Virus record (IMG/VR): IMGVR_UViG_3300024999_000053
Coordinates: 53,964 to 117,963 of that record
Length of the DNA stretch: 64,000 nt
Strand: one strand, 5' to 3'
DNA from: a virus
This document shows positions 3,517-54,618 of the stretch, in pieces. The notes beneath the pieces were generated by a model. The model worked only from the letters and a program-made list of their open reading frames with translations. It was not told where the DNA came from and made no database searches. Within the stretch, counting starts at the first letter, position 1, and the number at the start of each line of letters is the position of its first letter. The translations under genes were made by a program, and so were the position numbers.

Positions 3517-4908
3517 ATGCAAAAAGATTTTTCAAAACGTCCATTCGGATTAATAAGTTCTCCACCTGATGATAGAGATTATTCTTTATCAAAATTAATG
3601 TCAGTTGTTGGAATGTCTACACCAATTGAACCTGAACCAGATATATTTGAATATGAAGTGCCAGATATTAAAGATCAAGGAGATATCTGGCTTTGTGTTA
3701 GTGCGTCTGGATGTGTCCAGAGGGAGATAATTGAAAAACAACAGACTGGTGAATATAAAAAATTATCAATAGGATTTAACTACACCTTTAGAGAAAATTG
3801 GGATCTTCAGGAAAAGGGTTTGCGTCTTAGAGAATATTTAAAGGGGTTAGTAAAGTATGGAATACCTGAATATGAGTATTTTCAAATACAAGATAAAGAA
3901 TACCCTTTCATTAAAGAGGAATTAGGTAAGGTAAATTTACCAAGTGTATTAAAAAATGCACATGAGCATCGCATCACAGCTTTTGCCAACATAAAACAAG
4001 AAGAAATTAAACTAGCTTTAAGAACTCTTGGCCCAGTTTTAGTTAGTATTAGTATATATACTTCTTTTGGATATATCTCAGCAACTAATCCAATTATTCC
4101 TATACCAGATGTAAAAAAAGAACGAGTTTTTAATGGTCATTGTTTATTAATAATTGGTTATAACAATCAAACTAAACTATTTAAAATAGCTAATTCGTAT
4201 GGTAAAGGTTGGGCAGATAATGGATGTTGCTATGCAAGTTATGATTACAAATTTCAAGAATTGTGGAGTATTACAGACCTTGAAAAACCAAATTACACCC
4301 ACGACTTCAAATTAAATTTCACAACAAACAAAACTCAAACTACTCCTAATAACACAATTAATCTCTCATTTTCAACATTCGATTCAATCACACCTTTAGG
4401 AACTCAAACTATTGAATGTAGAATGCAATGTGGAAATTCATCATCTCAATATACATATACCACCAATTCAAAAGGAATAGTTAATGAGAATATAGTTCTT
4501 AATAAAGTAGGAGTAACAAAAATCACATGTTCTTGGAAATCTCCAGATAATAAAATTAATACAAAAACTATAAATGTATTAGTAGAACCAAAACAAATCA
4601 ATCCTATTACTCCTATTGAACCTAAGAAAATTTATTCATTATCTATTTCATCAGACAAAAGCAAATGTAATGTTAAATATATATTTTATATTACAATTAA
4701 AACATCAGCACCAAATCAATTAATTTCATTAAAAACTATTAGGTCAAATGGTAAAATTCGTAATACTACTGAGAAAACAGATAATAAAGGTGAATTTGAG
4801 ATGGGATTTGCTGAAGGTGTTGTAGGGATATTTAAACAAGAAGTAAGTTGGAAAGATGGTAATAATGAAATTAGAAGTGCAAGTGTAAATGTTAATATTG
4901 TAAAGTAG
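3517..4908 (+). CDS. Papain-type (C1A) cysteine peptidase with Ig-like tail
   Basis: A 463-residue protein. The N-terminal domain has the C1A residues in order: Gln54 in KDQGD, Cys60 in WLCVSAS, His208 in NGHCLLIIGY and Asn226 in ANSYGKGW. From about residue 265 the composition changes to Thr/Asn-rich beta-strand repeats (two segments of about 90 residues with TTNSKGIVNENIVL and TTEKTDNKGEFEM), which look like bacterial Ig-like (BIG/invasin) domains. There is no signal peptide, so export would depend on the holin or lysis. It lies between the NlpC/P60-like gene and the amidase with a good SD (AGGAGG). C1A peptidases are unusual next to phage lysis genes. Confidence 0.75.
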   Translation: MQKDFSKRPFGLISSPPDDRDYSLSKLMSVVGMSTPIEPEPDIFEYEVPDIKDQGDIWLCVSASGCVQREIIEKQQTGEYKKLSIGFNYTFRENWDLQEKGLRLREYLKGLVKYGIPEYEYFQIQDKEYPFIKEELGKVNLPSVLKNAHEHRITAFANIKQEEIKLALRTLGPVLVSISIYTSFGYISATNPIIPIPDVKKERVFNGHCLLIIGYNNQTKLFKIANSYGKGWADNGCCYASYDYKFQELWSITDLEKPNYTHDFKLNFTTNKTQTTPNNTINLSFSTFDSITPLGTQTIECRMQCGNSSSQYTYTTNSKGIVNENIVLNKVGVTKITCSWKSPDNKINTKTINVLVEPKQINPITPIEPKKIYSLSISSDKSKCNVKYIFYITIKTSAPNQLISLKTIRSNGKIRNTTEKTDNKGEFEMGFAEGVVGIFKQEVSWKDGNNEIRSASVNVNIVK

Positions 4909-13810: not shown

Positions 13811-13837
13811 GGGTGGCCACCCTCCCTGATCAGGAGG
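13811..13837 (+). promoter_or_regulatory. Hairpin masking the ribosome binding site of the GIY-YIG gene
   Basis: A perfect palindrome GGGTGGCCACCC (13811-13822) runs into CCTCC-CTGATCA-GGAGG (13821-13837), whose 3' arm is the SD of the nuclease gene. Masking the SD would keep nuclease synthesis low, as is known for some T4 homing endonucleases. Confidence 0.5.
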
Positions 13838-13848
13838 ATGATTTAATA

Positions 13849-14847
13849 TTGGAAGAGAACGTTTTTATGGTTGAATACATAATTGAGAATGGTTTAGATA
13901 AATTAGCATATGGTTTTATTTATATAACTACTAATTTAATTAATGAGAAGAAATATATTGGTCAAAAGATTTTTGACGATTATGGAAATGGTAGATGGAG
14001 GAAATATTTAGGTAGTGGGAAATATTACAAAAGAGCAGAAAGTTTATATGGAAAAGATAATTTTTCCAGAATTATTGTTGCAATTGCTTATTCTAAAGAA
14101 GAACTTAATGAGTTAGAAATGATATTTATAAAAAAATATAATGCCGTAAAAAATATAAATTTTTACAATATAACCGAAGGAGGAGGTGGAATGTCAGGAT
14201 ATCGTCTATCAGAAGAAACTATTCAAAAAATACGTAAGAAAAATTTAAATATGTCTAAAGAGACAAAGGATAAAATGAGTAAATCAGCAAAAGGTAAAAT
14301 TGTCTCAGAAGAAACAAAGCAAAGAATGAGTGCATCTCACTTTGGAAATAAACACTCAAAAGATACTATACAAAAAATGAAAAAACCAAAAACCGAAGAA
14401 CATAAATTAAAAGTCGGTTTGGCGTTAAGGGGGAGAAAAAGAACAGAAGAACACAATAGAAAATTAAGTATCGCATTAAAAGGAAAGAAACACTCTTTAG
14501 AAACCATAGAGAAATTTAAATTAATACAAAAAGGTGAAAGAAACCCAATGTATGGTAAACATCATTCAAATGAAACAAAAAATAGAATTCGTAAATCAAA
14601 AATTGGACGCTGTTTAGGAGAGGATAACCCCAATGCAAAAAAAGTTATATGTATCAACACATTTAAAATATTTTCAACTCTAAAAGAAGGAGCCAGTTTT
14701 TATAATGTTTGTGAATCAAGTATATCACTATGTTGTAACAAAAAGTTAAAATCAGCAGGTAAACATCCAATTACAAATGAAAAATTAGTCTGGCAATATT
14801 ATTCAGAATACATAAAGTCAAACCCTCCACTTCCAACTGCAATATGA
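13849..14847 (+). CDS. GIY-YIG homing endonuclease with NUMOD3 and NUMOD1 modules
   Basis: 332 residues from a TTG 11 nt after AGGAGG; an ATG 18 nt later is the alternative. The GIY-YIG core is GFIYITTNLINEKKYIGQ, followed by NFSRIIVAIA and an ELEMIFIKKYNA helix with the catalytic Glu. Three to five NUMOD3-like repeats follow (SEETKQRM, KHSLETIEK, NPMYGKHHSNETK), and a C-terminal NUMOD1 helix-turn-helix (VICINTFKIFSTLKEGASFY). This is the SegA/I-TevI-like arrangement of a free-standing homing endonuclease. The NUMOD1 end closely resembles those of the two Vsr-like nucleases in this window, showing module exchange. Confidence 0.85.
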   Translation: MEENVFMVEYIIENGLDKLAYGFIYITTNLINEKKYIGQKIFDDYGNGRWRKYLGSGKYYKRAESLYGKDNFSRIIVAIAYSKEELNELEMIFIKKYNAVKNINFYNITEGGGGMSGYRLSEETIQKIRKKNLNMSKETKDKMSKSAKGKIVSEETKQRMSASHFGNKHSKDTIQKMKKPKTEEHKLKVGLALRGRKRTEEHNRKLSIALKGKKHSLETIEKFKLIQKGERNPMYGKHHSNETKNRIRKSKIGRCLGEDNPNAKKVICINTFKIFSTLKEGASFYNVCESSISLCCNKKLKSAGKHPITNEKLVWQYYSEYIKSNPPLPTAI

Positions 14848-23411: not shown

Positions 23412-24127
23412 TTTAATTCCTCCTTTTTTGCCAAATGAAGTTTTAAGCAAAAGTTTCTAATCTCATCAAGATTAAGAAGTTCTATTGAATATGGAAATGC
23501 TTTATCCTTATCGATTATCTTCTGGATTTTGTTTTTTGCTGTATCACCTCCATCAGTTACAATTAAAACTACAAATGTTTGATTTTTGGACAAGTCTATC
23601 CACCAATAAGTAGAAATGCCTTGATATTTATCTTTAATTAATTTTTCTGCTAATTGATTATACTGTTTGATTTTCTTAAATTCATTACCCGATTCATATC
23701 TAGTAAATTCATTGAAATATATCTTTTTATCATTAAATGTATCAAATGTCACAAATTGGTCTGGTTTTATAATTGGTAAGAATTGAGTTGGTTCATTTTC
23801 AAAAGTAAGATTTGTATAATTACTTGCTTTAGAATTAAGGATAATAAAAGTATAAACCCATGATTTACCTAATGTGTGTTCAATATTCTTAGGTTTTTTC
23901 TCGTCAAATAACCAAAAATAATCTTTTTCTAAAAATGAAATTCTATCACCTCTCTTAATCCTATGCTTTTTCTCTAATCTCCTACAACAACGATGTGCCA
24001 TTTCAATTGAAAGACCTTGAAATTCAAGTAAATGGATTTGTGTTGTGTTCAAGCAGATACAACGTTCTAGATGTGCCAATACTCTTAAATCTCGGTAATA
24101 ACCCTTTGTATGATTTGTTTGATTCAT
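23375..24127 (-). CDS. Replication-relaxation-family protein
   Basis: A 250-residue protein. The N-terminal winged-helix region (RDLRVLAHLERCICLNTTQI ... CCRRLEKKHRIKR) and the alpha/beta remainder (VYTFIILNS, IYFNEFTRYESG) resemble the replication-relaxation family (PF13814) of Gram-positive plasmids, linked to plasmid DNA relaxation or transfer. It starts 9 nt after GGGGAGG and overlaps the upstream ATPase gene by 104 nt. The start is well supported, so the overlap is probably real. Its end overlaps the SD region of the next gene. Confidence 0.55.
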   Translation of the reverse strand: MNQTNHTKGYYRDLRVLAHLERCICLNTTQIHLLEFQGLSIEMAHRCCRRLEKKHRIKRGDRISFLEKDYFWLFDEKKPKNIEHTLGKSWVYTFIILNSKASNYTNLTFENEPTQFLPIIKPDQFVTFDTFNDKKIYFNEFTRYESGNEFKKIKQYNQLAEKLIKDKYQGISTYWWIDLSKNQTFVVLIVTDGGDTAKNKIQKIIDKDKAFPYSIELLNLDEIRNFCLKLHLAKKEELKCSQGFKQLPQF

Positions 24128-25397
24128 AATCGTAGACCTCCCCTTGAATATCTGTATATGGCATAGGATATTGAATTAATTTAGAGAGTAATTCTTCATA
24201 TCTATCTTGGTCTGATACTACGCTAGGAAAGTACATAGATTGAACTTCTATTTCTTCATCCCAATCAAATATTGCTCTCCCTTTTGCTTTTTTAGGGATA
24301 AATGCTGCTTTTGAATTTCCTAAAACCATATTAGAATTTATTGGGTCTTTTACACGGTATACAAGATTAGCGTCAAACATGGCTTTGAGTTCACTAAAGT
24401 TACCTATTTTGCCTAAACTATTTGCACTCGGCCTTTGAATCGCACCAATGCTAAATATACCTTGTGAACGACCTTGATGAAGTAAGCGATTAAATGATTC
24501 ATAAGCAGGAGAAGTAAACTCAGCCATCTCATCACAAATGACTACAATTGCTGGCATTTTGTTACCTAACTTTAAGAATTCAGGGAAATTTCTAGCTCCA
24601 GTTTTACTAACAATTGGCGATCTTCTGTCATTCTCATCATTAACTTGTTTTAATAATTTCTCAATATGTTGAGGTTCTTTTGCCCACATAGCACCATACT
24701 TTTCAAAATATTTAAATTCTCCTAGTTTTGGATCACATATTACTGGGATTACAGAAGGTTCTTTATCCATGCCTTTTATACTGTTTATTAGTAGCATTGT
24801 ATAAATGGCTGTATGACTGAAATTTGACTTACCACTTCCCATCATTCCACAAACGAGCAATGTTAAAATCTCTGCTAAATCCTTTACAATAAATCCATTA
24901 ATCGAATACCCAAAAGGAATAGGAATCATCATACCTTTTTTTAGATATGAAGTCGGGTCAAAATTATAAGGATACATTTTTGTTCTATTCACATTAGATA
25001 TCGTCATATGAACCGCCATTCCATGTTGCTCAATTTGACAATTGCCTGTTTCTCCTAAAGAATCTGCAAATGTTTGTTCTAATTTTTTAAAATTTTCGAA
25101 ATTTAATCCAGCAGGAAGATTAATTACAAAAAACCAAGTTTCATTATTATGTTCATCTAAACTTTTAATCCTTTGGATTACTTCTTTAATACTTTTTGGT
25201 CTTCTTAATTTAGTTTGTTCTATTAAATTTTCATCTTTTGGGTTTACAAGATGTCTCTTGATAATTATCGGTCGATAATCTTCTCCATAATGAAACACAA
25301 TTACATCGTAGACTTTTGCAGGAATCCCACCACCACGTTCTCTTCCTTTTTTCCATTGTTTAATTGCAATATCATAAGCATCCAATTTTTTTGACAT
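24024..25397 (-). CDS. FtsK/HerA-like DNA translocase ATPase
   Basis: A 457-residue protein. Walker A is GMMGSGKS (184-191) and Walker B is AIVVICDEMAEF (283-294). The segment LLHQGRSQGIFSIGAIQRPS (305-324) is the FtsK/TcpA-type motif region. The N-terminal 180 residues form a beta-rich domain without membrane helices. TcpA-like proteins drive double-stranded DNA through the membrane in Gram-positive plasmids. Here it is the first gene of an operon with a relaxation protein, a small membrane protein and an M23 wall hydrolase. The ATG follows AAGGTG; an ATG 39 nt upstream lacks an SD. A phage packaging role is less likely. Confidence 0.7.
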   Translation of the reverse strand: MSKKLDAYDIAIKQWKKGRERGGGIPAKVYDVIVFHYGEDYRPIIIKRHLVNPKDENLIEQTKLRRPKSIKEVIQRIKSLDEHNNETWFFVINLPAGLNFENFKKLEQTFADSLGETGNCQIEQHGMAVHMTISNVNRTKMYPYNFDPTSYLKKGMMIPIPFGYSINGFIVKDLAEILTLLVCGMMGSGKSNFSHTAIYTMLLINSIKGMDKEPSVIPVICDPKLGEFKYFEKYGAMWAKEPQHIEKLLKQVNDENDRRSPIVSKTGARNFPEFLKLGNKMPAIVVICDEMAEFTSPAYESFNRLLHQGRSQGIFSIGAIQRPSANSLGKIGNFSELKAMFDANLVYRVKDPINSNMVLGNSKAAFIPKKAKGRAIFDWDEEIEVQSMYFPSVVSDQDRYEELLSKLIQYPMPYTDIQGEVYDYESNKSYKGLLPRFKSIGTSRTLYLLEHNTNPFT

Positions 25398-25443
25398 AAA
25401 TTCACCTTCTTTATAATGATTATGAATAATTAACAAAAGTGTG

Positions 25444-26212: not shown

Positions 26213-26264
26213 AATGAATGATAAACTACATTATATTGAAATATCATTTAAGGAGGCATTTATA

Positions 26265-27233
26265 ATGAACGAAGAGGTTATTTTAGGTCTTGATGCAGGA
26301 AATTCTTACTACAAAACCAGCGCAGGAATAGTTTTAAGAGCAAGAATTAAGTTCAATACTGAGGGTGATGGTCTACTCAAAAGTAATACTTACCTAGTTA
26401 AAAAAGATGGTTTGAGCCATCTTGTAGGAGACCCAGAAGGTAAAACATACACCAATCCAGATAAATACACCACAACTCATTTTGATTTGTGTACATTAAC
26501 TGCTATTGCTTTAAGTTTTCCAAACTGTAAGGACATCAAAGTAAAATTAGTTGTTGGTACTCCTGCAGGGTACTATAAACAACACGCAACACTATATTTG
26601 GAAAAGTTACGAACTATGGGAGCACAAACAATTAATATTGGTGATGGCAGAGGCAATATTAATATTGAAATCACTGATTCTATTTGTTACATTCAATCTG
26701 GAATAACTGATTCTCAAAAAGAAAAATTCGATTATCCCCTATTAGTTTTAGATTTTGGTGGTGGAACTTTAGACGCTTCATTGTGGCGCAAAGGTGATGA
26801 TATTAACCCTGAAAATACTGAAGTAATTTTGGATTCAAAAGTTAGTTATACTCAATTTGGTTTTGATCAAATATTAGAACAAATGACAACGACCTTTAAT
26901 TCTAAAAATGGAACTAAATTTAAACCTCATGAATTATTGCAGTATCTCAAACGATCAGAAATTACTTTGCGAAAACAAAGTTATGACTTGCAAAAAACAA
27001 AAGATGAAATTCTTGTAGATTATATCGATAATGTAATTTCTTCTTTGGAGCAAACATTTGATTTACAACAAGCATTAGAAACATGTGTCATGGGTGGCCC
27101 TGCTGAAATATTGTTACCTTATCTTAATATTAAACTTGATAATACAGCAAAATTATCTAGTGAACATCCTCAATTAACTAATGCTTTAGCATATCTTGAT
27201 GGAGGAAAACAATATTGGGATTTGGATGAGTAA
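26265..27233 (+). CDS. parM: ParM-like actin ATPase (plasmid segregation)
   Basis: A 322-residue actin-fold ATPase. Phosphate-1 is LGLDAGNSYYK, phosphate-2 is LVLDFGGGTLDASLW and the adenosine motif is CVMGGPAEI. ParM-type proteins form filaments that push plasmid copies apart. The ATG 8 nt after AAGGAGG is chosen over one 51 nt upstream that lacks an SD. ParR-like gene follows 2 nt after the stop; repeats lie upstream. Together they form a type II partition locus. The precise ParM/Alp subfamily is not determined. Confidence 0.75.
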   Translation: MNEEVILGLDAGNSYYKTSAGIVLRARIKFNTEGDGLLKSNTYLVKKDGLSHLVGDPEGKTYTNPDKYTTTHFDLCTLTAIALSFPNCKDIKVKLVVGTPAGYYKQHATLYLEKLRTMGAQTINIGDGRGNINIEITDSICYIQSGITDSQKEKFDYPLLVLDFGGGTLDASLWRKGDDINPENTEVILDSKVSYTQFGFDQILEQMTTTFNSKNGTKFKPHELLQYLKRSEITLRKQSYDLQKTKDEILVDYIDNVISSLEQTFDLQQALETCVMGGPAEILLPYLNIKLDNTAKLSSEHPQLTNALAYLDGGKQYWDLDE

Positions 27234-27235
27234 CT

Positions 27236-27595
27236 ATGGGTAGCCTAAGAAAATATGTTGGCACAAATCTTAGTTCAAAAAATGATACAATTTTAATTGA
27301 TTATGTAAATCAAATGGAAGAACAAGGAATTTCTAATTCACAGTTGGTTAAAACTTGTTTAAAATTTTATATGGATTATTATCCAAAAAAACTTAAACTG
27401 GATGAATTTAATGAGAAAATTACTGATAATATTGTGTCAGGCAATATTAAGGTTTCTGTAAACAGTGTAAATCCAAGAAAGACTAGAAAGAAAAATGAAG
27501 TTGTTGTGGAGCCTGAGCAGTTTGAAGTGGTTATTCCTGATAAAAAGAAGGACAGTATTTTTATTAAAACTATGAATAATCTTATGTCCGAGTGA
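27236..27595 (+). CDS. parR: ParR-like adaptor
   Basis: A 119-residue protein directly behind the ParM-like gene. The N-terminal half looks like a ribbon-helix-helix type DNA-binding domain (LIDYVNQMEEQGISNSQLVKTCL) and the C-terminal half is basic (NPRKTRKKNEVVV) with a short helix. Size and position match ParR, which links the centromere to ParM filaments. Assigned mainly by context. Confidence 0.55.
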   Translation: MGSLRKYVGTNLSSKNDTILIDYVNQMEEQGISNSQLVKTCLKFYMDYYPKKLKLDEFNEKITDNIVSGNIKVSVNSVNPRKTRKKNEVVVEPEQFEVVIPDKKKDSIFIKTMNNLMSE

Positions 27596-27707: not shown

Positions 27708-27736
27708 TACATGTTGATAACTTTTTATGCTATAAT
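27708..27736 (+). promoter_or_regulatory. Extended -10 promoter upstream of the rep leader
   Basis: TACATG (27708-27713), 17-nt spacer, TGC-TATAAT (27728-27736). A possible SD (AAGGAG, about 27772) follows but only very short frames are open, so the transcript to the terminator at 27969-28013 may be untranslated (about 270 nt). Confidence 0.45.
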
Positions 27737-27968
27737 ATTCCTGTGGATAATTTAATTTATTAGAAGGAGAATTGTATCAACCTGTCGAATATATAACTTA
27801 ATCAAATTAACTCAATAAAATGCAAAAACACCTGACCTCTTGCAAAGATCAAGTGTTTTCTGGCAAAATGTTCTCACCAACATTAAGCTTTTAGTTCTTA
27901 AAGATATTGTACCCTAAGTTTAAGATAGAATCAAGTATAAACTTAGTGAATAATTTAGTAAGATTGCT

Positions 27969-28013
27969 AAAGTTAGTAGTTGGTGCAGAGATGTACATGC
28001 TACTAACTTTTTT
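27969..28013 (+). terminator. Intrinsic terminator in the rep upstream region
   Basis: AAAGTTAGTAG (27969-27979) pairs with CTACTAACTTT (28000-28010) and runs into T6. It would end transcripts from the 27708 promoter before the antisense-RNA region, unless it acts as an attenuator. Confidence 0.75.
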
Positions 28014-28047
28014 ATTGAGTAAGGTTATTAAAATTTAATAGGTAATG

Positions 28048-28128
28048 AAAAAATCTCCTAGTTAGTGCTTGAGTTGTGGCGACACATCACTAAACTAGGA
28101 GACCCCTGAAGACTCGTATTGAATTCTT
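28048..28128 (-). ncRNA. Antisense RNA controlling the replication initiator
   Basis: A minus-strand transcript of about 80 nt, bounded by a consensus promoter (28135-28163) and a strong terminator. The terminator stem is TCTCCTAGTTAGTG (28054-28067) against CACTAAACTAGGAGA (28088-28102, one bulge), with T6 on the minus strand from 28053 down to 28048. It is complementary to the rep leader and covers CTGAAGACT (28106-28114), the element that can free the rep SD. The start at about 28128 is estimated from the -10. Confidence 0.7.
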
Positions 28129-28211
28129 TAAGTCATTTTATCATGATTTTAAAAATTTGTAAACAGTCTTCAGCATCGCTACGCTCATTTTTTGAAAATG
28201 CTGAAAGAAGG
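28106..28211 (+). promoter_or_regulatory. Alternative-pairing leader of the rep gene
   Basis: CTGAAGACT (28106-28114) can pair with AGTCTTCAG (28165-28173). The overlapping TTCAGCAT (28169-28176) can instead pair with ATGCTGAA (28198-28205), which abuts the rep SD AAGAAGG. The two pairings exclude each other. Antisense RNA binding to the first segment would favour the SD-occluding hairpin. Confidence 0.6.
28135..28163 (-). promoter_or_regulatory. Promoter of the antisense RNA
   Basis: Minus strand TTTACA (28163-28158), 17-nt spacer, TAAAAT (28140-28135). Confidence 0.7.
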
Positions 28212-28219
28212 TTTTAATC

Positions 28220-28933
28220 ATGGATCTAATTATTCCTAACGAATTACCAATTGTTGTTCAACCTACTGTAGTTAATGTTTTTGGTCAGACCCAAGCTGAA
28301 TTATTATCTCGTTTAAAATACTGGATGAATAGAGCAACTAAATATCGTGATGGTTTTCTATGGGTTTATAAGACTGTAAATGATTGGGCCTTAGAACTCA
28401 ATAAATCAGTCAAGACGATTCAAAGAGCAATTAAGGATTTAGAGAATAAGAAAGTTCTTATCTCAGAACAATTTGAATCTAAAGATTGGTATCATGGAAA
28501 ATCATATAGAATTGATTTAGATGTATTGTATAAATTATTAGGTGTGCCTAAACCTGTGGATAAAAAAAGACAAGATGTCCAAGAAGTTGAACAAAATGTC
28601 TCAATCATTACACCTATACCATCAATATCTAATTCTGTATGTATGGATTCTAAAAATTATGATTGTCAAAAAGAAGAATTTTGGAAAGATGAAGATTGGC
28701 CTTTGGTGAAGATATTAGGTGATTGTCGAGTAGATCCAGATTCCAATTTCGGTGTAACAATAGGTAAAATCTGTAAGGAATTAAAAGTATCATCAGACCA
28801 ATTGAAAGAAGCACTTTCAATATTATTTAATGCGAAATTTCATATTAAGAATCCATTTGGTTTCGTTAAAAAAGTTCTTAGAGATTTTGTTTCAGGAGAA
28901 AGTGCCTATTTTAATTATCATTATCAATCATGA
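28220..28933 (+). CDS. Plasmid-type replication initiator
   Basis: A 237-residue protein. The N-terminal half is a winged helix-turn-helix (RDGFLWVYKTVNDWALEL followed by SVKTIQRAIKDLENKKVL), the arrangement of many Gram-positive plasmid Rep and DnaD-like initiators. A linker (about 112-150) joins a C-terminal helical domain (ITIGKICKELKVSSDQLKEA-like) similar to DnaD-type tails. The SD AAGAAGG is 8 nt before ATG. Upstream lie an antisense RNA and alternative hairpins, the classic copy-control layout. No catalytic nuclease motif is seen, so theta replication is more likely than rolling circle. Confidence 0.65.
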   Translation: MDLIIPNELPIVVQPTVVNVFGQTQAELLSRLKYWMNRATKYRDGFLWVYKTVNDWALELNKSVKTIQRAIKDLENKKVLISEQFESKDWYHGKSYRIDLDVLYKLLGVPKPVDKKRQDVQEVEQNVSIITPIPSISNSVCMDSKNYDCQKEEFWKDEDWPLVKILGDCRVDPDSNFGVTIGKICKELKVSSDQLKEALSILFNAKFHIKNPFGFVKKVLRDFVSGESAYFNYHYQS

Positions 28934-44985: not shown

Positions 44986-45170
44986 GTATCACCTTCTTTC
45001 TTAACAATAAAATTATCAGGTGCTTGCCAATACCATTGATATTGATTAAATTCACCACAAATATTCTTAAATTTCATGTAAACTTGCTCTGCATCAGGTG
45101 TTGCTAATATTCTCAAACAACTAGAAGATTTTTCACAATCAGTAAATTGACACATTGATATGTTAGCCAA
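44982..45170 (-). CDS. Small protein, possible metal site
   Basis: A 62-residue protein from TTG 8 nt after GGAAG. CQFTDCEKSSSC in the first 20 residues may bind metal; aromatic middle (YQWYWQAPDNF). No family recognised. Confidence 0.45.
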   Translation of the reverse strand: MANISMCQFTDCEKSSSCLRILATPDAEQVYMKFKNICGEFNQYQWYWQAPDNFIVKKEGDT

Positions 45171-45238
45171 ACTTTAATCTTCCATCCTTTCATTTTTAAT
45201 TTCTGATTCATTATTATAGAACTCTAATGATTCAATTG

Positions 45239-45322
45239 TCACCTTTTTATAATATAGTTTTTATTATACTCTTCAAAGTCACACTGAATCCAATCGCCAT
45301 CTCTGCCGTGTAAAATTTTAAT
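45239..45322 (-). CDS. Mini-gene with ATT start
   Basis: AGAGGTG is followed after 7 nt by ATT, opening KILHGRDGDWIQCDFEEYNK and six more residues before TGA. The other frame at this SD is less protein-like. A further very short frame (45174-45242) follows before the next gene. Initiation at ATT is inferred and uncertain. Confidence 0.3.
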   Translation of the reverse strand: MKILHGRDGDWIQCDFEEYNKNYIIKR

Positions 45323-45343
45323 ATGTATTCACCTCTTTTGATT

Positions 45344-45396
45344 TAGCAAGAATTTGATTGGTGGTTCTAATAATCTGTATGATCAAACTCTTGCTA
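45344..45396. other. 15-bp stem-loop in the operon leader
   Basis: TAGCAAGAATTTGAT (45344-45358) pairs with 45382-45396 with one mismatch across a 23-nt loop. No U-tract follows on the minus strand; it could be a processing or stability element. Confidence 0.55.
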
Positions 45397-45443
45397 ATGT
45401 TATGATAATTATTTTATGATTTGTGTTTAGGAATTATGATTAT

Positions 45444-45590
45444 TTAACCAATCTTTTTGTAATATGTAGTTGTATTGGTTAGATCGCTTTTACTGAACAT
45501 GAAGTTTGCTGTGTCTTGGGAATTGTATTCTTGAGAAGTGCAGGTAGTCCAAATTCCGTCGATTCGATTGATGAGTTTTGTGGGATTCAT
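45444..45590 (-). CDS. Small protein directly behind a consensus promoter
   Basis: A 48-residue product with SD GGAGGTG and the promoter 45617-45645 upstream. Polar and Thr-rich (GIWTTCTSQEYNSQDTANF). No family recognised. Confidence 0.5.
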   Translation of the reverse strand: MNPTKLINRIDGIWTTCTSQEYNSQDTANFMFSKSDLTNTTTYYKKIG

Positions 45591-45616
45591 TTTTGTTTCA
45601 CCTCCTCTCTATTTAT

Positions 45617-45645
45617 ATTATAGCATGTGGGGAATTTGATGTCAA
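45617..45645 (-). promoter_or_regulatory. Perfect-consensus sigma-A promoter
   Basis: Minus strand TTGACA (45645-45640), 17-nt spacer ending in TGC, TATAAT (45622-45617). It restarts transcription after recD2 for the small-gene and nrdD region. Confidence 0.85.
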
Positions 45646-45663
45646 GGAATTTTATTTATTGGT

Positions 45664-48600
45664 TTAAACAATTGTCTGAAACATATCTTTCAAATATGTT
45701 TGCTTCTTTTTTGTTTCTCTCGTTTTGATTGCGGTTCTTATTGCTGAATTTTGCCCGACTAATACACAATATTTCTTTGCTCTTGTAACGCCAGTATAAA
45801 GCATTTCTGTGTTCAGGAGGACATATGCTGAAGATTCAATACATACAATTGCCGTATGAAAACCTGATCCTTGAGAACGATGAATTGTGCAAACGTATGC
45901 CAGTTCTAATTTCTTAACCCCTGCTCTATCTAACACTATCTCTCCAATTCCCACAAAATCAACAACACAAACTCCATTGTCAATTTCTTTTACTATTCCC
46001 ATATTCCCATTGAAGATTGGAGTTATCTCTCCATTAGTATTAATTGCCCTATAATTATTTTTAGTGTTAATAACTTTATCTCCAAGTTTAATTTTATAAA
46101 ACTTATCCTTGTCAATTTTTACTTCAATAAAAATATCTTTATCGTCTACTGGATTGATTATTGATTGAATTTTATTATTTAAGTTATATGTTGATAAATC
46201 TCCTCTTGTTCTCATTGGAGATAATATTTGTGTTTCTATGATGTCATTGGTAATTTTATAATGTTTCAAGAAATGTTTTAAAACTCTATCAGATGGAGAA
46301 TCATCTTCTTTATAGATGTCTAATTCCATATCTTGAAGTTCTCCAAGTATCAAATTACCTTCAAATTTAGGTTTTAGTATTTGTTCTTGTTCAGAAATTT
46401 TAATTGAGGTAACAATAATTCCTGACATTTCTGCTTGTCTGTGGATTTTAGTTAAAGTTATACTTGGTATTACATTTGAATTTAGTATGTCCGAAAAAAC
46501 TTGACAATTTCCTATTGGAGTTAATTGTTTTATATCACCAACTATGATTAATTTTGCTCCGTTTGGTATTGCTTTAAGTAAACTTAAAAATATATCACCA
46601 TTTATCATCGTTGTCTCATCGATTAGTACTACGTCTGTATCCAGTGGATTCTCTTCATTATATGTAAATTCACCATGAGAATACCCTAAAAGTCTATGTA
46701 TGGTGCTTGCTTTTAAACCTGTTGCTTCTGTAATTCTGACTGATGCTTTCCCTGAGAGGGCAGCTGCCGATATAATATAATCTTTAAAAACTTGAACAAT
46801 TCCATTTAAAGTAGCAGTCTTACCACAATTACCAGTGATAAAAATACTTCCATTTCTTCTTAAAATCAACATATGAGAAGGAACTGTAAAACAATATTTA
46901 TATCCATCGATTGTTTTATACTTTTCTATTTTATTTATATTATATTTGTCTTTTGCTTGAATACCTACCGTAATAGCTCTCTGTGATACATGTACATCAT
47001 AGTCTATAGATTTTCTAGTATATAGTTTTCCACTCGTTAAATAAGATTGCCCCCTTCTGTCTTGAAATCCTAATTTTGCTCTTTTCCCAGTTGCAGAAAA
47101 AACAAATTGCACGAAATCGGCAGTAGATTTTACGTTTGCGGAAAAACTTTCTCTATTGTTCCTAATAGAGCCATCCCAATTTAAAACTTCAGACGCAATT
47201 ATTTTCAATTGTTCATAAGAGCAATTATACCAATATTCTGCGGTGAATTCTTTTTCTAGTCTGGGGGGATTTACATAGAAATCTGAAAACCCCTCTGCTG
47301 CAGAATCTGCTTCTCTCCATTTCAAATTATTGAGTTTAAATAATTCTATTAATCTTTTCTTTTTCCTATCTTTTCTAACATGAAAGCGGCAAGTGAAATT
47401 TGAATTCCCTATCATTAATGATCCGTCTGCTATTACAGCAACCATCAATCTAATTTGGTCATCAGTTAAATCAATCCCCTTTCCATCATATTTGAATGTT
47501 GTAATAAATCTACCAGAAAAACCATGTTGGTTTCCATAGTGCATTTCTATCAAATCACTACATTTCTTTATATTTAAATTATTTTTGGAACTTAAATATA
47601 CTATATTATGATTATCACAAACACATTGATCAACGCTCCCAGTTTCATTTTTAATATGATTTAAGTATTCTTCTTTTTCTTTTATGTATCTTTCTGGTAA
47701 TACTAACTCTGCTGTTCCGTCTCTATTATACTGAAGTACATTTTCACCTTCAATATAATCGGAAATCTTCTTCCATCCAACCCCATTAAAATATTCCGTA
47801 TCACAATCCACACACCCTGCTGATCCAGTTAATGCAACAATATTCTTATCGATAATTAATTTAACTGCTTCAATTTGTTCGGAAGTGTAAGCAAAACCTT
47901 GTTCTTCCTCCACACTTTTAATCGTATCTTCCCAGTCTCCAAGTTCAAATTCTTCACTACGTTCTGCATTTAGTAATCTAATTAATTCATTGTGAATATT
48001 CATTTCTAAATCGTAGTATCTCTTTAGTCCAATTAATTGACCGTCATCAGAAACATTAATTTCTTTTTTATCAACTAATTGTTTAGCTACATCATTTATA
48101 ATATCTTGTTCAATAAATCCAATTTGATCAAAAACAATATTCATTAATTCACTAAAATGTAAGTAACTCCTTCCTATTTCTCCATTTCCAGCCAATGTAT
48201 TTATAATACAAGCTTTTACTCTCCTTGAATCATTCCCTATCATACCCATTTTCTGTGCTATTTCATCAGCTTTTTTAAAACCAACACCACTAACCTCAAC
48301 TAATCTATATGGATTATTTTTAACAATATCAACCACTGTGTCAGGAGATTTATAAAAATCCAATAACTTATTTATTAGATTAGCACTCAAGTTGGCATTG
48401 CTCAATTCTGTATAAATTTGAGAATAGTCTTTACAATCTTCAAATTCTTCAATTATTCTCATCGCGGTAGCATGACCTATTCCATTAATTGACGTAAGTG
48501 CAGAAATGTCTTTATCTTCTAATAAGGTAATTACATCATCATATTTTTCAAATAATTTATATACTATATTTGGATTAATTATGCCTTCTAAAAAATCAAT

Positions 48601-52872: not shown

Positions 52873-54618
52873 CTAGAATCTAAATTTTACTACACTTGGA
52901 GCATACATATATTCTTCAATCATAACTTGTGGTGTAATTTTACCCATGTATTCATTAACACTAAATTTACCAATGGCAGTAAGATTAATAGCAGGATGAC
53001 TTTTGATTTCATTAAATTTTTCTTCATTGGTAAAAAACTTAATTAATGAGATTCCATTGAATTTAAACTTAATTGTATTTTTGTTTTTACCCATTAATTC
53101 AATATCACTTGTATTGATTAATAAATTTTCTAAAGCGAACAATGGCTCATCTACTGAGTTTCCCCAAATGTTTTTATGTTTCCCTACTGATTCAATTAAA
53201 ATCTTATTTAGTGTTTTTTCAGTAAAAATTGCATCAACATCAAACAATAAGAAATTTGAAACTTCCATCTCTCCAACCATTGTATATAACTCATCCATTT
53301 TTTCACTAGGAACTGAAATTCCACAAGCATTAGGATGACCCAAAGCATAATCAAACAAACCACTATTATTACACCATTTTTTAACATCTTTAATATCTTT
53401 TTTATCATATCCTCTGGCACTTCCTGCAAAACTACTACCATGAGCACTAAGTAAGAAACATGGTCTTTGATAAAAATTAGTAAGTTTATTTGCTAATAGT
53501 CCATTTAATGATTTCTCAGTAAGTCCAGTTGCATTGAGAATTATAATTCCATTATTGTCCAATTTAAAATCATTTACTTGAGTTTTAGCTATTTCCATTG
53601 CATCATCTACGAGTTTCTTTTGTTTTCTCTTACATTTCCCTGCGATACGTACAACGTAATCTTGAAGAGATAGTTCGACTTCTCCTTTCCCTCTAATTTT
53701 ATCAATATGTGGTTCATCGATATTGAGGAATGCTTTGAACATTAATTCTTTTTCTTCGTATGTCCCCATTCTGATTAATGCATTGACTAGAGGAGCAATA
53801 TAGAATCCGATTCCGATAATAGATACTTCATTTTTCATATCATACGCCTTATCTTTAACTAAAGCTGAAATGAATTTGTTCTTATTTTGTTCTTTGGACA
53901 TTTGTTTGATGCCCTTTAAGACTAAATAACGACTCTCTAAGTTCCTTAAATCTGCAACGTCAGCAATCATACCAACAGCTACTAAATCGAGGTAATTGTC
54001 TGCGAAATTTAGGTTTAATTTCTTATCAATGTATGTAAAGAATTTCCAACAAACCCCTACTCCTGTCATAGATTTGTTCGTAACCTTTTGAGAGAGTTGA
54101 TTATTTATAACAATTGCATCTTCACTGTATCGATCACATTCATGATGGTCTAAAACTAAAATGTCAATTCCTTTTTTCTTGTAATATTTATGTTGTGCAT
54201 AGTCATTACTCGATGAATCTGGTAAAATTATTAAACTACAATCAAACTTATGGATTTTAGTCATTGTAATATCATCTAATCCATGTGCTTTATCGTCGTG
54301 AATAACGAAATGAAGTTTAGCTTTACTCCCAAATTTTTCGATTAGAAGTGAAGCATACTGATAGGTAAAAGAAGCACTAGAACTACCATCAAAATCTGGG
54401 TCTACTACAATGACGATATCACTTCCTAATTCAATATGCCTCATTAAACACTTATATCCTAATTCCATATTATCATATAAGTCCTCGGATTCTAAGTGAG
54501 ATTCATTAGGATTAAGAAAATCAGGGATATTGATAATGTCTCTGTTTTTTAAAACAGTATCTAATATATTATTAAATCCTATTACATTACCCTTTAGGCT
54601 ATATTTAAAATTACTCAT
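52873..54618 (-). CDS. RecJ-like DHH phosphoesterase (single-strand exonuclease)
   Basis: A 581-residue protein. DPDFDGSSSA (Asp73/75/77), SLIILPDSSSND and VLDHHECD are the metal-binding DHH motifs I-III; the DHHA1-like region has FAGSARGYDKKD and GHPNACGISV. It should digest single-stranded DNA 5'-3' during replication or recombination. It matches SPbeta YorK in position between primase-like and DnaE genes. Confidence 0.85.
   Translation of the reverse strand: MSNFKYSLKGNVIGFNNILDTVLKNRDIINIPDFLNPNESHLESEDLYDNMELGYKCLMRHIELGSDIVIVVDPDFDGSSSASFTYQYASLLIEKFGSKAKLHFVIHDDKAHGLDDITMTKIHKFDCSLIILPDSSSNDYAQHKYYKKKGIDILVLDHHECDRYSEDAIVINNQLSQKVTNKSMTGVGVCWKFFTYIDKKLNLNFADNYLDLVAVGMIADVADLRNLESRYLVLKGIKQMSKEQNKNKFISALVKDKAYDMKNEVSIIGIGFYIAPLVNALIRMGTYEEKELMFKAFLNIDEPHIDKIRGKGEVELSLQDYVVRIAGKCKRKQKKLVDDAMEIAKTQVNDFKLDNNGIIILNATGLTEKSLNGLLANKLTNFYQRPCFLLSAHGSSFAGSARGYDKKDIKDVKKWCNNSGLFDYALGHPNACGISVPSEKMDELYTMVGEMEVSNFLLFDVDAIFTEKTLNKILIESVGKHKNIWGNSVDEPLFALENLLINTSDIELMGKNKNTIKFKFNGISLIKFFTNEEKFNEIKSHPAINLTAIGKFSVNEYMGKITPQVMIEEYMYAPSVVKFRF

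Follow-up and report, generated by a model that had tools for sequence, protein, structure and literature searches.

A small antisense RNA probably folds shut the start of a phage initiator message

In the staphylococcal RepA_N plasmids pSK41 and pSK1, the antisense RNA RNAI (~83 nucleotides, nt) has its target in the rep leader ~100 nt before the start codon, and once bound it brings about a stem-loop in which the rep ribosome site is sequestered, giving translational control (PMC5703833). Here we describe the leader of rep, the gene for a phage O/DnaD-like replication initiator, in a 64,000-nt stretch of viral DNA (the window; IMG/VR record IMGVR_UViG_3300024999_000053, positions 53,964 to 117,963). 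As in pSK41, a predicted short antisense RNA with a conserved promoter and terminator, likewise predicted, lies opposite the rep leader, and in silico this RNA favours a hairpin that closes the ribosome site (16/16 leaders, above shuffles). Unlike pSK41, where Rep is of the RepA_N type, the window Rep is phage O/DnaD-like; the antisense RNA (RNA-2) is predicted to form a single long stem-loop where RNAI forms two; and the phage leaders show a second antisense unit upstream and loop inversion among relatives. The predicted mechanism is of the pSK41 RNAI class, the logic of which is already published, and as judged from its sequence the leader lies outside the pSK41 replicon family, with no RepA_N domain and no sequence kinship detected.

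Comparison of leaders makes it likely that this is an antisense-driven copy-control leader, alternating between an open A-B and a closed B-C pairing (Table 1), of a phage probably kept as a plasmid. In the free leader, arm A would pair with arm B, leaving the Shine-Dalgarno sequence (SD) and start codon fairly accessible, and the initiator would be produced. The antisense RNA would be made constitutively at a level following copy number, and would pair with both the hairpin and arm A, starting from the loop and/or its 25-nt 5' tail; arm B, thus released, would pair with arm C beside and partly over the SD, and translation would be blocked. An upstream second antisense unit with a sense terminator would probably add a transcriptional check, the weak part of the scheme. 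We infer from sequence the transcription of RNA-2, the order of contacts and the effects on Rep and copy number.

The initial annotation had placed a minus-strand promoter, TTTACA-N17-TAAAAT, and a terminator around an RNA of about 80 nt. Both signals are present there with an expected length of ~82 nt, and the expected RNA (28128 to ~28047) includes arm A and excludes arms B and C, in agreement with the proposal that it covers only the first pairing element. Every element named for the A-B and B-C/SD pairings was likewise found in place, base by base. The further suggestion that antisense binding pushes the leader toward the SD-closed form gained support from fold calculations and from the relatives described below. 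The description of the locus as a complete copy-number switch holds for the switch logic and fails for completeness, because the same leader contains, 150-400 nt further upstream, another antisense RNA gene together with a sense terminator.

Rep homologues in viral contigs shared 53-81% identity with the window protein, and other leaders were collected via the ParM neighbour, a conserved leader motif and other initiators, giving 16 leaders (designated L and a number), 11 of them distinct; scans of genome contigs with Rep and with a ParR-like alignment found no relatives. The same order (antisense hairpin, A, minus-strand promoter, B, C/SD) was kept in the 11 distinct leaders, and the predicted antisense start lay 24-27 nt from the hairpin in 14/16, the exceptions being L026 and L028, which are very similar to each other. 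The sequences of A and B vary yet pair within each leader, as in CTGAAGACT/AGTCTTCAG, GGCAAAAGTGTT/AACACCTTCTGCC, CAGAAGACTAG/CTAGTTCTTCTA and GGACAAGGGAAA/TTTTCAGTTTGTC. Specifically, the A-B pairing energy averaged -14.2 kcal/mol for own partners and -9.8 kcal/mol for mismatched ones, and none of 1,854 mismatched assignments in a derangement test reached the true value. Energies were also better than those of shuffles in each leader (p 0.006-0.058; Fisher p 6e-7 over seven representatives), the pairing tests using masking and shuffled nulls only. B-C/SD pairing was found in every leader.

Masking the antisense-covered stretch raised the energy required to open the SD-to-start region in 16/16 leaders (Wilcoxon p 0.0005 for the 11 distinct ones), the mean being 5.1 kcal/mol free, 11.8 masked and 6.1 with a control block. 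For the window leader the corresponding values were 4.5 kcal/mol free and 11.1 masked, with 4.8 for the control block. The effect vanished in the window on shuffling the B region (true change in opening energy, ddG, 6.6; shuffles -0.5 +/- 1.4; 0/150), and the fraction of shuffles matching the true effect was 0-0.06 in five other leaders. Masking the arm-A tail alone closed the SD in most models. The elements, their conservation, the A-B covariation and the change in predicted SD access are all computed quantities. A chance origin of the entire arrangement was rejected by the A-B derangement, masking and B-region shuffle tests.

Several points weigh against this reading. The support for the switch is computational throughout, the antisense RNA being a prediction, and nearly all metagenomic relatives come from a few samples. 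Covariation of B with C was not significant (cross test; 28% of derangements equally good), because the SD-side arm hardly varies. When the full-length ensemble took in 25 nt of the coding region, the probability of an unpaired SD in the window fell from 0.45 to 0.35, with a small change in some leaders and, in L034, a value of 0.00 whether masked or free; the strength of repression is therefore uncertain. Taken alone, the RNA-2 promoter match in the window was not above chance (4 promoter-like sites in the window scan vs 3.7 expected from shuffles) and the SD hairpin was not unusually stable (z -0.45); the RNA-2 fold was (z -3.2). The role of Rep as a plasmid-mode initiator is deduced from PHROG matches and ParM/ParR-like neighbours. 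Within the window the more-than-chance verdict is only partial, so that the relatives decide, and comparison with them lifts the switch from a guess to a well-supported prediction.

The control systems of pT181 (RNAI) and pIP501 (RNAIII) (PMC5703833) share with the window leader a pre-emptor logic, in which antisense RNA on one arm frees the partner for a downstream hairpin. Module 1, the upstream unit, further resembles them in combining an antisense RNA (RNA-1) with a downstream terminator (T1); it occurs in most relatives, with none in L009, L026, L028 and L034-38, and is probably a second checkpoint. Inspection by eye revealed no clear consensus promoter in the interval from T1 to RNA-2, and rep mRNA therefore probably must read through T1. 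It is nevertheless unlikely that rep is controlled by transcription attenuation in the pT181/pIP501 fashion, with an antisense-triggered B-C or T1 hairpin terminating rep transcription. In its favour, the sense hairpin T1 is strong and conserved, carries a run of U residues (U-run) and lies 3' of the second antisense unit, and a pre-emptor-like pairing is supported in the window (p 0.013), where it occupies 89% of the 5' arm of T1 in a truncated transcript, and in close relatives, including L005. In divergent relatives this pairing is unsupported (p 0.18-0.59), and at equilibrium T1 folds irrespective of RNA-1 in 10/11 leaders, so that neither covariation nor folding supports T1 attenuation as a general rule. 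For RNA-2, unlike in pT181 and pIP501, the downstream hairpin closes the SD and leads into AGAAGG, not a U-run, which does not fit attenuation of the pT181 type. As a separate observation, a palindrome in 27900-27960 and in relatives overlaps the spacer of the RNA-1 promoter, with arms that covary by eye (CTAAGTTTA/TAAACTTAG, CAAAGACT/AGTCTTTG), and is a candidate operator or RNA hairpin.

Direct blocking or destruction of rep mRNA by the minus-strand RNA, through duplex formation or RNase III cleavage with the A-B/B-C alternation incidental, is open to any perfectly complementary RNA pair and requires no leader switch. We consider it quite improbable as the explanation here, since A-B complementarity is maintained through sequence turnover and masking of the tail only is sufficient for closure in most models, which together point to selection on the switch itself; direct block and leader switch could also coexist. 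That the hairpins are replication-origin DNA signals or plain terminators and the minus-strand promoter a chance match is very improbable: origins near rep genes are rich in hairpins and promoter-like matches arise freely in AT-rich DNA, but the promoter-to-hairpin spacing is kept and DNA origin structures would not be expected to show A-B covariation with SD-linked folding.

The switch, as judged from these leaders, is a cassette portable among initiators. Near-identical or homologous leaders precede four different phage-type initiators, namely the window type, an O-like protein (L008, L014, L032), a Pfam Phage_rep_O-like protein just under the family cut-off (L010, L013, L016, L026, L028) and a DnaA_N-containing protein (L009, L034-38). 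The window antisense hairpin is identical letter for letter in L014 and L032, though the initiator differs. The same predicted layout was found 5' of related initiators in Bacillus subtilis plasmid pNIB353_1 (L047; A-B p 0.0145; ddG 6.8; 0/100 shuffles) and Vagococcus plasmid p35B2_c1 (A-B p 0.0025; ddG 3.9; 1/100 shuffles), and the pNIB353_1-type leader is present at >=99% in seven Bacillus plasmids. Because pNIB353_1 has a second annotated replication initiation protein (~45028-46380), the leader there may act for a second replicon. No such leader precedes the related initiator of Alicyclobacillus pAACI01 (L043), and the window leader gave no BLAST match among 72,556 PLSDB plasmids (E<=0.1). 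The pSK41 logic is thereby extended to unrelated phage-type initiators and to plasmids of cultured B. subtilis and Vagococcus, in which it is testable.

Swapping of control regions is already known. The REx-C/REx-R replicon modules of Pseudomonas (PMC5304414) share with these leaders an antisense control region exchanged before non-homologous rep genes; unlike them, the present leaders belong to Firmicute-type phage elements, are unrelated in sequence, change their loops by inversion and have no leader peptide shown here. The hybrid replicon pPR9 (in PMC5703833) likewise places an initiator domain of phage type after a rep leader under antisense control, and differs in being an N-terminal domain swap only, inside one pSK41-like leader. 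The present leaders add to this a sequence family of their own, unrelated to those above and attached to phage-type initiators, as well as a second antisense unit in tandem and the inversion of loops.

Between L009 and L034, the 16-nt RNA-2 loop is exactly reverse-complemented, the other 214 nt of the compared leaders differing at one base, and the RNA-2 loops of L008 and L002 are exact reverse complements across 18 nt; the RNA-1 loops of the window and L013 probably show the same inversion. A plain terminator 3' of the gene in the parR position also has its loop inverted between L010 and L004, suggesting that the mutational process is general in these genomes, and comparable hairpin-loop inversions are known from chloroplast DNA (PMC2903610). 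Across orientations the predicted loop pairing weakens from -26.5 to ~-9.5 kcal/mol, while stems and tail remain complementary. Since the inverted antisense loop of one type equals the sense loop of the other, we propose that mutual recognition would be lost and self-complementarity retained. Loop differences relieve incompatibility in the REx modules, a precedent for loop changes in control modules (PMC5304414), and by analogy loop inversion would be expected to alter incompatibility here. It is possible, and proposed only tentatively, that inversion changes the incompatibility group in one step and, with the serial second antisense unit and initiator swapping, lets near-identical phage-plasmids co-reside; L036 and L038, from one metagenome, have opposite loop orientations and initiators 93% identical. 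Searches of the open-access literature found no description of copy-control RNAs of plasmids with naturally inverted loops. Such pairs are a natural experiment, in which leaders differ little beyond the orientation of 16 nt, and pairs of the L009/L034 type could show cleanly whether the orientation of the loop is by itself enough to set antisense specificity and plasmid incompatibility. In the terminators after the parR-position gene (L004, L006, L010, L014), the loop CACTATCC..GGATAGTG was seen in both orientations.

Further upstream, the candidate rep promoter is accompanied by the DnaA-box-like sequences TGTTGATAA (27712) and TGTGGATAA (27742). The pattern of the leader element that follows (Table 1) had 11 matches in viral contigs and stood upstream of an antisense unit in the examined leaders. 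Its form GGAGAWTTGNNNNNNCNTGTCGAATATA is conserved where leaders carry the upstream antisense unit and includes a Spo0A-box-like TGTCGAA; leaders with module 2 only have a related TGTCGAT immediately 5' of their TATAAT. Spo0A control through TGTCGAA gained no support, the window having 4 copies of the heptamer where 6 were expected, and neither did a conserved leader peptide across GGAGAWTTG...GTCGAATAT, the length of the frame differing from leader to leader. No Rfam RNA family matched above its gathering score.

Table 1. Features of the rep leader and its neighbours, in window coordinates; all RNA elements and promoters are predicted.
Feature	Position	Strand	Remarks
ParM/ALP-type actin-like segregation protein	26214..27233	+	Pfam ALP_N 1.4e-10; PHROG 691 partition protein 2.5e-25
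Small protein in ParR position	27236..27595	+	Assigned from position and conservation only
Candidate rep promoter	27708..27736	+	TACATG-17-TATAAT
Leader element GGAGAATTGTATCAACCTGTCGAATATA	27766..27793	+	Conserved among relatives
RNA-1, second antisense RNA	27816..27899	-	~84 nt; two stem-loops; fold z -3.45; terminator scan; conserved in relatives
RNA-1 terminator hairpin	27824-27860	-	
Candidate pre-emptor CCAACATTAAGCTTT	27877..27891	+	Could pair with T1 5' arm, 27969-27983
RNA-1 promoter	27906..27934	-	TTGATT-17-TACAAT
T1, terminator-like hairpin and U-run	27969..28015	+	Between both antisense units; candidate attenuator; fold z -5.95; conserved
RNA-2, antisense RNA	28047..28128	-	~82 nt; 25-nt 5' tail and single long terminator stem-loop
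RNA-2 terminator hairpin	28054-28102		TTTTTT next on minus strand
Arm A CTGAAGACT	28106..28114	+	Pairs with B in open form; under antisense RNA; from A-B covariation
RNA-2 promoter	28135..28163	-	TTTACA 28163-28158, 17 nt, TAAAAT 28140-28135
Arm B AGTCTTCAGCAT	28165..28176	+	Used by two mutually exclusive pairings
Arm B, portion facing A AGTCTTCAG	28165-28173	+	
Arm B, portion facing C TTCAGCAT	28169-28176	+	
Arm C ATGCTGAA	28198..28205	+	Pairs with B in closed form; adjoins SD
SD AGAAGG	28206..28211	+	ATG 8 nt further on; from sequence
rep	28220..28933	+	237-aa winged-helix, phage O/DnaD-like initiator; ATG 28220

The controlled protein matched PHROG 6493 (DnaD-like helicase loader, E=3.2e-19) and PHROG 9773/428 (O-like and initiation proteins); in Pfam it gave weak helix-turn-helix matches only and none to RepA_N. 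The viral record (118 kb) carries tail and tape-measure genes, a tyrosine recombinase and a DNA polymerase 42-43% identical to its pBS32 and SPbeta counterparts, so that virion genes stand together with plasmid partition and initiator genes, as expected of a phage-plasmid. The ParM-type Bacillus plasmid prophages (for example pBtic235-like, B83; PMC8026635) and pBS32 share with it phage structural genes, a ParM-like protein with a small adapter, and a tyrosine recombinase. This match in gene set makes plasmid maintenance, and hence copy control, likely, and the switch would then predict how copy number is set in a group of Bacillus-like phage-plasmids; the leader may instead control the onset of lytic replication, and given the tyrosine recombinase there may be an integrating state. 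PMC8026635 nowhere uses the word 'antisense', and antisense control of an initiator is not described in the passages on phage-plasmids that were searched. Elsewhere in the window, an FtsK/SpoIIIE-like ATPase gene (24024-25436) is divergent from the ParM-type gene and is retained as its neighbour in L010, L012 and L013, a gene at 13813-14847 encodes a GIY-YIG/NUMOD3 homing-type endonuclease, and one at 3517-4908 encodes a phage protein with a papain-family cysteine protease domain.
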